DNA from: Actinomycetota bacterium
GTDB lineage: Bacteria; Actinomycetota; Acidimicrobiia; Acidimicrobiales; Ilumatobacteraceae
Direction: 5' to 3'
Assembly: GCA_017856115.1 (NCBI GenBank)
Contig: JAFMFM010000003.1
Coordinates: 1-64,000 of the forward strand
Length of the DNA: 64,000 nucleotides
Positions within the stretch are counted from its first letter, which is position 1, and the number at the start of each line of letters is the position of its first letter. The notes below the pieces were generated by a model. It searched no databases, was not told the origin of the DNA, and saw only the letters and a program-made list of their open reading frames with translations. The translations under genes and the position numbers were made by a program. This document shows, one piece after another, positions 59,380 to 64,000 of the stretch.

Positions 59380-59432
59380 CCCGTTGGAACAGCGAGTAGC
59401 AGTGTCACATGACGCGCCACGCTGACGCCTTG

Positions 59433-59505
59433 TGGTCGGGACCGGCGTCGATCCGGTGACCCCGCGCTTTTCAGGCGCGTGCTCTGCCAACTGAGCTACC
59501 CGACC
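59433..59505 (-). tRNA. tRNA-Phe (GAA)
   Basis: 73-nt cloverleaf: acceptor GGTCGGG/CCCGACC, D arm TAGCTCAGTTGG, anticodon loop CTGAAAA (anticodon GAA), discriminator A. Confidence 0.96.
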
Positions 59506-59530
59506 ATGATTCGGTGTTGCCACCGTCTCG

Positions 59531-59605
59531 CGGTCCCGACGGGATTTGAACCCGCGACCTCCGGCTTGACAGGCCGGCGTGAACTCCAAACTTCACCACG
59601 GGACC
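59531..59605 (-). tRNA. tRNA-Asp (GTC)
   Basis: 75-nt cloverleaf: acceptor GGTCCCG/CGGGACC, anticodon loop CTGTCAA (anticodon GTC), T loop TTCAAAT, discriminator G. Confidence 0.96.
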
Positions 59606-59631
59606 AGATTCGTTTCCGAAACCGATCTTTG

Positions 59632-59704
59632 CACCCCCAACGGGATTCGAACCCGTGCCGCCACCTTGAAAGGGTGGTGTCCTAGGCCTCTAGACGATGG
59701 GGGC
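59632..59704 (-). tRNA. tRNA-Glu (TTC)
   Basis: 73-nt cloverleaf: acceptor GCCCCCA/TGGGGGT with a first-pair G-U, D arm TCGTCTAGAGG, anticodon loop CTTTCAA (anticodon TTC), T loop TTCGAAT, discriminator G. Confidence 0.96.
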
Positions 59705-60597: not shown

Positions 60598-61530
60598 GTG
60601 GTGCTGAGTCGTCCGTTCGTTCCGTCGCGACTGGCCAAAGCGTTTTCACACGTCGGCTCTCGTCCAGCGCGTACGACGATCGGCGCATACGTGGCACTGA
60701 CCAAACCGCGAATCATCGAGTTACTGCTCATCACCACGATTCCCGCGATGGTGCTGGCGAAAGGGGGCTGGCCCGACACGTGGCTCGTGGTGTGGACGGT
60801 GATCGGCGGGTCATTGGCGGCGGGTGGAGCGAATGCAATCAATATGTACATCGATCGCGATATCGACCAGTTGATGGCTCGCACTCGAAGTCGACCGTTG
60901 GTTACGGGAAAGGTCTCGCCACGTAACGCCCTGGTGTTTGCAATTGCACTCGAGGTGTTGGCATTCGTCGTGCTGGCGTTGTCGTCCAACGTACTCGCGG
61001 GAACCCTTGCCGTCTCGGCCACGTTGTTCTATGTATTCGTCTATTCCTTGTGGCTGAAGCGCACCTCTCGTCAGAACATCGTCATTGGGGGTGCAGCCGG
61101 TGCGGCACCGGTGTTGGTCGGTTGGGCCTCGGTCACTGACTCGTTGTCGTGGTCGGCGGTGGTGCTGTTCCTGGTGATCTTCCTGTGGACACCTCCGCAT
61201 TTCTGGGCACTGGCGATTCGCCACGCCGATGAGTACAAGGCCGCATCCGTGCCGATGCTCCCCGTGGTGGAAACAACCGCTCGAACGGTGCGCACGATGG
61301 GGTGGTATGCCGTCGCCGTCACGGTGACTTCGTTGACGCTCATCCCGGTGAACGACATGGGTGTCATTTACGGTGTCATGTCCGCGGTGTTGGGCATCGT
61401 GTTCATCGCCCTCACGTTCGGTCTTGGAAAAGCCCCCACCATGTCTCAGGCCATGCGGGTGTTCACGTTTTCCATCACCTACCTGACGCTGTTGTTTCTT
61501 GCAGCGATGATCGACGTGCTCGTGCGCTAG
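60598..61530 (+). CDS. ctaB: Protoheme IX farnesyltransferase (heme O synthase)
   Basis: 310 residues from GTG 60598. Nine or so membrane helices; UbiA-type motif N-M-Y-I-D-R-D-I-D and R-T-R-S-R-P-L. Makes heme O for heme-copper oxidases. Its neighbourhood with oxidase-like genes is usual. Confidence 0.93.
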
Positions 61531-61623: not shown

Positions 61624-63123
61624 GTGGTGATGACGGCTACGCAAGCGCAATCCGCGACGGGTTCGGTTGCCGTCTCGACGAGTCCCCTTGGCGCAGTTGC
61701 TCGCTGGGTGACCCTGGCAGATCACGTCCGAATTGGCATGTCGCTTGCGCTCGGCGCGGCATTGTGGCTGGCAATTGCCGCCGTGGTGGGTGTCGTGCTC
61801 GGGGTCGAGCGTTTCGATGTCGGCGCATCGGTGGTCAACGCCGATGCCCATATCCAGTTGTTCTCGGTGCATCAATTTGCATTGGTATTCGGTGTGGCCG
61901 CCCCGTTGATGCTGGGTATCGCGCTCTGGAGCGTGCCTTCCCAACTGCACGCATCGAACATCTCGCTACCACGCCTCGCGGCTTTCGGATGGTGGGCCTG
62001 GCTCGCCGGCAGCATCACGGTGTTGGTGTCGTACCTCGGGAACGGCGGTCCTGGTGGCGGCAGCGAGCGCTACGTCGAGACGTACCTGCTTGGCCTTGGC
62101 CTCGTCATGCTCGGGCTCGTTGCTCTCGCGATCTCGCTCGCCACCACCGTGCTGACACGTCGCAACGGGTTACCACTCTCGGCCATTTCTCTCGGCGCCT
62201 TCAGCGCCGTCGTCGGTGCGCTCGGAATGGTGCTGACATTGCCGGTTGCGATCGGCACCATCGTTTATCTGTGGGTCGACTACACGAATGCGCGAGTTGC
62301 GTTCGGTGGAGCCGGCCTCATCGATTCATGGCTCGGTTGGACCATGCGTGAGCCGCAGACGCTTTTGTACGTGGCGCCGGCCTTGGGAGTGCTTGGTGAT
62401 GCCGCGGTTCGCACCGCCAAGTCGCGACAGCCGTTGCGAGGCGTGATGCTTACCGCAATGGGAATCGCGGCCACGGTGATCCTGAGTTCTGTTACCCAAC
62501 AGGCTCACGTATTCACCGTCGGTACCTCACCGTCGGAGACACTGGCTTCCTTCGTGCCCTACGCGCTGTTCAACGTGGTGCCACTCCTTGCCCCAGTCGT
62601 GGTGATTTTGCTGTCGCTCCTGGCACTCAAGGCGGGTACGCCGTCCCTCTCAGGCGCGTTTGTTGCAGCATTCCTCGGGGTTGGAATGATCTTCACCGGG
62701 TTGGTTGGTTCCGCGGCCATGCACCTTGATGTACTCGATCTGGTAGGCACCGTCTTTGGTGAGGCAGCTCTCGTGTACGTGGTGTACGGCGCGGTACTGG
62801 CGTCCATCGGAGCAGTCGCTCTGCATGCCGGAGCCGTTACCGGCAAGGCCCTGCCGGATCTTCCCGTGACATTGTTGGCATTGCTCGGAGTAGCGGCCAC
62901 CGTGCTCGCGTCACTTCCGCATTACATTGCCGGGCTGCTGGATCAACCCCGAGCGGCTGCGGTGGGTTACGACGACTCTGGCATCGTCGGCATCGCGAAC
63001 ATCGCAACCTCACTCGGGCATGCATTGATGCTGTTGGTGCTGATCGCATTCATTGGATTGTTCGTCTCGTCCCGTCGGTCTGCTGCGATTGCGGATCGTT
63101 ATCGAGTGGAGGCTTCGGCATGA
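61624..63123 (+). CDS. Degenerate heme-copper oxidase subunit I homolog
   Basis: 499 residues, about 12-13 membrane helices. Alignable landmarks of CtaD: helix II F-S-V-H-Q-F-A-L-V-F then L-P-R-L-A-A-F-G-W-W, L-T-L-P-V, and helix VII A-H-V-F-T-V-G. But the H-P-E-V-Y motif is E-P-Q-T-L (Glu243, Leu247), only one His (295) remains of the H-H pair, and the H-F-H motif is A-A-L (381-383). So of the six metal ligands only His83 and His295 stay. It is unlikely to reduce oxygen; role unknown. Overlaps the next gene by 4 nt. Confidence 0.78.
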   Translation: MVMTATQAQSATGSVAVSTSPLGAVARWVTLADHVRIGMSLALGAALWLAIAAVVGVVLGVERFDVGASVVNADAHIQLFSVHQFALVFGVAAPLMLGIALWSVPSQLHASNISLPRLAAFGWWAWLAGSITVLVSYLGNGGPGGGSERYVETYLLGLGLVMLGLVALAISLATTVLTRRNGLPLSAISLGAFSAVVGALGMVLTLPVAIGTIVYLWVDYTNARVAFGGAGLIDSWLGWTMREPQTLLYVAPALGVLGDAAVRTAKSRQPLRGVMLTAMGIAATVILSSVTQQAHVFTVGTSPSETLASFVPYALFNVVPLLAPVVVILLSLLALKAGTPSLSGAFVAAFLGVGMIFTGLVGSAAMHLDVLDLVGTVFGEAALVYVVYGAVLASIGAVALHAGAVTGKALPDLPVTLLALLGVAATVLASLPHYIAGLLDQPRAAAVGYDDSGIVGIANIATSLGHALMLLVLIAFIGLFVSSRRSAAIADRYRVEASA

Positions 63124-63725
63124 CCGCCCCTGCACTGACGGCCGGCCCCGCACGCCGAACCAGCACGGTTCTCGTGGCCAGCGCGCTCGTTGCGGCAGGC
63201 GCCGCCGCGCTCATGGGTGGAATGTTGGCGATGTGGCTGCAGTTCCGCGCGAATGCGCCCACGCGTGTCGCGAGCGATGGCGTGTCGCTCATCAAGGACT
63301 GGTTGAAGAAGGACGTTGCGATTCCCGAAGTGGCATCCAACACCATGATGTTCACGTTCGTCATCGCGTGTGTCATGGCGCAATGGGCGGTGTATTCGGC
63401 GCGACGTGGCGACAAGTCGCACACCACGTTGGCACTGGCGGTCACGCTGTTCACCGGTCTGGCGATTCTGAACGCCCAAGTGGCCCTGTGGATGCAAATC
63501 GACATCGTGTTGCGTAATGATGCGTACGAAACGATGTTCTATACGGTCACCGGCACGATGTTCGCCATCGTGGCAAGCGCCATGGTGTACTCCCTGGTCG
63601 CGATGTTCCGGGTACTCGCGGGTCGTACGGGTGACCACGATGTTCTCACGGGCCACGCTCTCTATTGGTATGCCGTGTCGGGCATGTTTGCCGCGATGTG
63701 GTTCGTCGTCTACGTACAGAAGTAA
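63120..63725 (+). CDS. Heme-copper oxidase subunit III-like protein
   Basis: 201 residues with about five membrane helices (near 17-40, 75-95, 105-128, 136-160, 175-197). Similarity to CtaE is seen in F-Y-T-V-T-G-T and Y-W-Y-A-V-S-G-M-F, corresponding to the family's T-G-x-H-x-x-H-V and Y-W-H-F-V-D, but the histidines are replaced by Met, Ile and Tyr. It starts in an ATGA overlap with the subunit I homolog. Function unknown. Confidence 0.68.
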   Translation: MTAPALTAGPARRTSTVLVASALVAAGAAALMGGMLAMWLQFRANAPTRVASDGVSLIKDWLKKDVAIPEVASNTMMFTFVIACVMAQWAVYSARRGDKSHTTLALAVTLFTGLAILNAQVALWMQIDIVLRNDAYETMFYTVTGTMFAIVASAMVYSLVAMFRVLAGRTGDHDVLTGHALYWYAVSGMFAAMWFVVYVQK

Positions 63726-63728
63726 CCC

Positions 63729-64000
63729 ATGTTCAAGGTCGGCTCGAAACTCTTCCTCGGTCTCACCGGCTTCGCGGCACTCACCCTTGTTGCGTACCTG
63801 ATCTTCGTCGAACGTTTGGCTCTCGGCGGGGTAGCCCTCAGCGTGGTGTTTGCAGTGCTCGTCGGTCTGTCGGCAGTGATCATCATGATCAACGACGGCG
63901 ACAGCGAAGTGCAGCCACGCGACGTGTCGTTGGTTCGTGCATCCATGTGGCCGCTCGTAACGGTCGTCGGGTTCGTGCTGCTCATCCTGGGTCTGGTGGT
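63729..64000 (+). CDS. Membrane protein resembling oxidase subunit IV (CtaF), partial
   Basis: Starts at ATG 63729, 3 nt after the previous stop; 90 codons seen before the window ends. Helices at about 8-26, 33-53 and 75-90. The layout and V-Y/A-Y-L-I-F-V-E with S-M-W-P-L recall actinobacterial CtaF, but similarity is modest. The 3' part lies outside the window. Confidence 0.5.
   Translation, partial: MFKVGSKLFLGLTGFAALTLVAYLIFVERLALGGVALSVVFAVLVGLSAVIIMINDGDSEVQPRDVSLVRASMWPLVTVVGFVLLILGLV

Follow-up and report, generated by a model that had tools for sequence, protein, structure and literature searches.

A metal-ligand-free homolog of oxidase subunit I in Ilumatobacteraceae, a possible cofactor-free partner of the adjoining caa3 oxidase

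Genes of the oxidase cluster

We analyzed a stretch of 64,000 nucleotides from an Ilumatobacteraceae genome (the window; contig JAFMFM010000003.1, positions 1 to 64,000), the end of which falls within a cytochrome oxidase gene cluster. Followed past the window along the contig, the gene order was ctaB-D'-E'-F'-ctaC-ctaD-ctaE-COX4-ctaG, in which the order D'-E'-F' parallels that of oxidase subunits I, III and IV (Table 1). The ctaC of this operon combines COX2 with cytochrome c, as in the caa3 type, and its ctaD is ligand-complete and carries a CtaF-like tail. A search for another complete oxidase set in the genome, proposed in a previous reading of the sequence alone, ended in the same operon, ~3 kb downstream of D'. 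D' and this complete CtaD were the only two COX1 genes found in the 1.67-Mb focal genome, which also encodes a cytochrome b of the complex III type. ctaB was a conserved neighbor upstream of D' in the relatives inspected, and E' orthologs were present in D' clusters.

Table 1 Features of the oxidase cluster and ligand sites of D' in window coordinates
Feature	Coordinates	Strand	Description
tRNA genes Phe, Asp, Glu	59432-59704	-	In tandem, upstream of the oxidase cluster
ctaB	60637..61530	+	UbiA-family protoheme IX farnesyltransferase that opens the cluster; Pfam UbiA 213 bits
D'	61624..63123	+	Ligand-less subunit I (COX1) homolog, 499 aa, 12 TM helices
His83 codon	61870..61872	+	Only position of D' that matches a metal ligand (heme a, TM2); varies within the family
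E243-P-Q-T-L247	62350..62364	+	Replaces HPEVY (CuB His1, gating Glu, cross-linked Tyr)
Q292-Q293	62497..62502	+	Replaces the CuB His-His pair
F378-G-E380-A-A-L	62755..62772	+	Replaces VAHFH of TM10, which holds the ligands of heme a3 and heme a
E'	63120..63725	+	Subunit III (COX3/CtaE) homolog; NF050119 CtaE 37 bits, Pfam COX3 19.6 bits
F'	63729..64000, to contig 64862	+	377 aa, cut by the window end

The D' frame was open over exactly the tabulated interval and overlapped the next gene by an ATGA at position 63120, as the sequence-only reading had described; a Met conserved in the family makes the ATG at 61630 the likely start. That reading had also assigned D' to the CtaD-related subunits I, an assignment that profile scores and predicted structure both upheld. 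Pfam COX1 matched D' with 97 bits (cut-off 34.8) over 414 of 436 positions, and NCBIfam CtaD with 109 bits against a cut-off of 671, placing D' far under every curated NCBIfam oxidase model. An AlphaFold2 model built from 109 aligned sequences (104 D' homologs and 5 canonical CtaD) had a mean pLDDT of 90.3 and a pTM of 0.91, with helices as expected, and its top solved matches in Foldseek were cytochrome c oxidase subunits I (TM-score ~0.80, rmsd ~3.8 Å, identity ~19%). D' thus has the COX1 fold and the 12 transmembrane helices of a heme-copper oxidase subunit I. It is homologous over its whole length to CtaD/COX1 of the A-type caa3 and aa3 oxidases, likewise shares its operon with genes for subunit III and a CtaF-like protein, and has the DHK and FPR motifs in common with them, while a C-terminal DPW..LEW motif is found in most D'. 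The D' of the focal genus ends (63060-63123) without the DPW..TLEW..SPPP..NF tail common to CtaD and most other D'.

F' comprises about seven transmembrane helices followed by a C-terminal domain with a cupredoxin fold. Its N-terminal part resembles actinobacterial CtaF (Cyt_c_ox_IV) and the CtaF-like tail of CtaD, and the C-terminal domain shares the fold of auracyanin/plastocyanin-type cupredoxins (top Foldseek match auracyanin, E 7e-5). F' differs from both in that the two are fused in one protein of 377 residues, and the focal copy lacks copper ligands but keeps two conserved Cys. The D'E'F' unit contains no second ctaC with a CuA site.

Ligand sites of D'

The register of the ligand sites was set by profile-profile alignment of D' to the operon's own CtaD (probability 100), by intermediates that align without gaps, and by the family alignment. 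Two of the replacements named in the sequence-only reading held under this alignment, HPEVY by EPQTL at residues 243-247 and the TM10 H-F-H by A-A-L, with no His left in the TM10 HxH. A third, in which the His-His pair would read A-H, was reproduced by pairwise phmmer alignment; the ungapped intermediates (W-A-H-H, Y-A-Q-P and V-T-Q-x at this site) favor a Q-Q register. Since profile alignment and intermediates place Q292-Q293 on the pair, His295, two residues on, is not at a ligand position. Of the two histidines that had been thought to remain, His83 does align with the TM2 heme a ligand, but it is unconserved in the family and His295 is off-site. The same reading had raised the possibility of missing histidines at shifted positions, and profile alignment with the intermediates revealed no shifted metal ligands in D'.

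Cofactor by cofactor, D' lacks the ligand sets for CuB, heme a3 and heme a that CtaD/COX1 has, as well as its D- and K-channel residues. The CuB triad is absent in either register, Q-Q or A-H, and the positions of the triad and the cross-linked Tyr are occupied by E243, Q292, Q293 and L247. For the low-spin heme, His83 is there on TM2 and the TM10 His is gone; among 30 rows of the focal family the TM2 column reads mainly H (10), Y (8), Q (4), F (3) and L (2), the His rows being essentially those of the focal genus. The column of the proximal His of the high-spin heme is mostly A, S, T or V in the family, with His mainly in deep relatives. The equivalent of D132 is S, N, A or Q and that of K362 is V or L in the focal family; channel residues are gone from nearly all D' rows (0/14 retained in the deepest rows), and the heme-propionate arginines are also missing.

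Subunit I homologs with an altered CuB site occur among nitric oxide reductases (NORs) and heme-copper oxidase members of the nitric oxide dismutase type; NORs retain hemes, and FeB with His/Glu ligands replaces CuB. D' differs from NORs in lacking FeB-type ligands (His triad and Glu, with heme His), and in the focal protein the CuB and TM10 columns are free of His.

Q292 was kept in 28 of 30 focal-family rows and in 41 of 57 intermediate rows, E380 was kept in 29 of 30 focal-family rows, and both belong, with R63, R268, R272 and Q441, to the residues conserved in a family-specific manner in D'. The ligand losses recurred in congeners at 67-97% identity and in about 80 named loci from MAGs of the family, where the sequence-only reading had suggested looking for them. 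A sequencing or assembly artifact was ruled out as their source, the same losses being found in orthologs from many independent assemblies.

Distribution and graded loss of ligands

Matches were found in 58 of 61 relatives, some of them to CtaD only, and the named matches were MAGs of the Ilumatobacteraceae and Acidimicrobiaceae type, acIV included. G032, a genome of the same family (3.9 Mb, 96% complete), had no D' or CtaD match, unlike its relatives, which may be a gap or a real oxidase loss. D' was conserved throughout the focal family (Ilumatobacteraceae-type MAGs) and preceded ctaD by ~3.0 kb, a fixed distance in the family loci examined. To cover the order, D' loci from some 70 further genomes with more than 30 family codes were retrieved and read, and D' was present in more than 30 families. 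It was not found outside the order; the best matches examined elsewhere in the class and phylum were canonical CtaD. A dedicated NCBI model matched neither the focal D' nor the 16 order-level relatives scanned. In a phylogenetic tree all D' formed one clade with support 100 on a long stem from CtaD, such that the parent of D' among CtaD types was not pinpointed.

The CuB triad was missing from every D' found, and none of 78 tree rows had more than one of the three His. Other ligands were lost to different degrees. Scored for the TM2 His, the a3 His, the a His and the type-1 copper site, 41 tips of the 78-tip tree had none and 9 had all four; a further 4 lacked a3 only, and 7 had the heme a pair only. 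Type-1 copper was confined to tips that keep both heme a ligands (13/13), a coupling that is descriptive, as the tips are related and the independent pairs were too few for paired sign tests to reach significance. On the deepest D' branches the heme ligands of TM2 and TM10 are retained, R-P-E-V-Y stands for H-P-E-V-Y and W-A-A-G for W-A-H-H, and the accompanying F' carries a complete type-1 copper motif (H-N ... C-D-x-H-x(2-3)-M, Pfam Cupredoxin_1). The next set has lost the heme a3 His and retained the low-spin heme pair. In other F' copies the copper domain is missing or has given way to an acidic tail, often rich in His, and 29 of 50 intermediate F' proteins (for example L232, L224, L245 and L240) have at least three His in the last 45 residues; these His- or acid-rich tails are possibly metal-binding. 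The focal family stands without a heme ligand set in D' and with a ligand-free cupredoxin fold, including the two conserved Cys, in F'. Because the CtaD outgroup is intact, the direction of the series would be loss rather than gain.

Eight deep loci (L058, L055, L057, L061, L209, L210, L212 and L251) encode a CuB-less subunit I with R-P-[ED]-x-[YF] and both heme ligand sets intact, next to a membrane protein that carries a type-1 copper domain, apparently an uncharacterized redox unit. A redoxin/TlpA-type gene with a thioredoxin fold lies between F' and ctaC in deep relatives (L058:7552-8100, L055:9591-10232, L066:11226-11798) and is missing from the focal cluster.

Between the focal species and its congeners, dN/dS was 0.10-0.16 for D', 0.03-0.11 for E' and 0.07 for F', compared to 0.02-0.06 for ctaD and ctaE, with D' at ~2.5 to 5 times CtaD, ratios that are approximate because dS was near saturation. 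D' is under purifying selection, not decay. Together with the intact fold and the occurrence in more than 30 families, this agrees with the earlier view of D' as functional.

Possible roles of D', E' and F'

We infer that D' in the focal lineage serves the caa3 oxidase of its own operon as a structural or assembly partner without cofactors, a proposal that we regard as the likeliest reading, at about even odds. The caa3 oxidase is the likeliest client because the linkage of D'E'F' to its operon is fixed. D', E' and F' would derive from a heme-copper oxidase as its subunit I, its subunit III and a CtaF-like subunit with a periplasmic cupredoxin. CuB would have been lost first, leaving a unit unable to reduce oxygen in the usual way, while the complex stayed, its hemes and blue copper being retained by some branches but not by others. 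In later branches the ligand of heme a3 and the copper site would have gone, and last the ligands of heme a, with fold, gene order and purifying selection kept, such that the use remaining in the focal lineage is presumably independent of redox chemistry. D'E'F' could then act as a pseudo-symmetric partner or docking platform for the caa3 oxidase, comparable to CydB with CydA.

CydA and CydB show pseudo-two-fold symmetry, for which gene duplication has been proposed, and the hemes reside in CydA (PMC8324918). Like CydB, D' is homologous to a catalytic subunit, lacks cofactor ligands and is encoded beside its catalytic counterpart, CtaD. The two belong to different fold families, CydB is a proven enzyme subunit whereas D' is known as a putative partner only, and D' comes with subunit III and IV homologs of its own. 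The fuller account, in which a whole oxidase unit (I, III and the IV/cupredoxin fusion) lost CuB and then hemes and blue copper to become a cofactor-free caa3 partner complex, a pseudo-oxidase analogous to CydB with CuB-less di-heme and mono-heme intermediates still living, is put forward tentatively, at a little below even confidence. Against a partner role, operon linkage alone would also suit an assembly factor or a membrane role unrelated to the oxidase, and the dN/dS of D' is loose for a tightly docked subunit. D' might, moreover, bind a cofactor through non-canonical ligands that sequence would not reveal.

A biogenesis module, in which a D'E'F' platform passes copper or heme to nascent CtaC/CtaD, or stabilizes them, and then leaves, is suggested by the position of the three genes, which follow ctaB (heme O synthesis) and precede ctaC and, farther on, ctaG, by the redoxin/TlpA-type gene of deep relatives, and by the type-1 copper site of deep F' and the His-rich ends of intermediate ones. 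The focal F', however, has neither copper ligands nor a His-rich C-terminal tail, a set of subunits I and III is large for a chaperone, and other CtaD-bearing genomes of the class do without D'E'F', so we consider such a module rather unlikely. D' could also be an independent membrane protein, a channel or transporter of protons, ions or small molecules that uses the old cofactor cavity, and the conserved polar and charged residues listed above, some of them at old sites, would suit this. Its linkage to the oxidase operon, E' and F', the loss of D- and K-pathway residues and the lack of any recognized transport motif make this improbable.

The sequence-only reading had offered a non-oxidase membrane role or a very changed redox site. 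The first is favored by purifying selection, the breadth of families, the intact fold and the complete CtaD adjoining. The second may hold for basal relatives, which have heme ligands and type-1 copper without CuB, but is disfavored in the focal family, where there is no conserved His column and the copper ligands of F' are gone. That the focal D' still binds heme or metal through His83 and another ligand, as the alignment of His83 with the low-spin heme ligand and the closeness of His295 to the old CuB site might suggest, is very doubtful given that both His vary within the family, TM10 lacks the partner His and the F' copper site is lost. A decaying, functionless copy or an assembly artifact would account for drifting ligand columns and evolution faster than that of CtaD, but is scarcely credible for a gene with open frames in complete orthologs, fixed synteny, a dN/dS of ~0.1 and E' and F' retained.

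Few known proteins are as constrained as subunit I of the heme-copper oxidases. The open-access literature searched held no description of a ligand-less COX1 paralog or of a D' operon; a conserved subunit I lineage without metal ligands would be, as far as we found, new to the superfamily, and its novelty is provisional. The series suggests an order in which CuB, heme a3, blue copper and heme a can go while the protein is still needed, such that non-catalytic roles of the oxidase scaffold become testable. The di-heme relatives without CuB, with their blue-copper subunit, seem to form an uncharacterized type of redox protein of their own. As genes of the D' type are automatically annotated as oxidase subunits, the number of oxidases counted in MAGs of freshwater actinobacteria may be too high.
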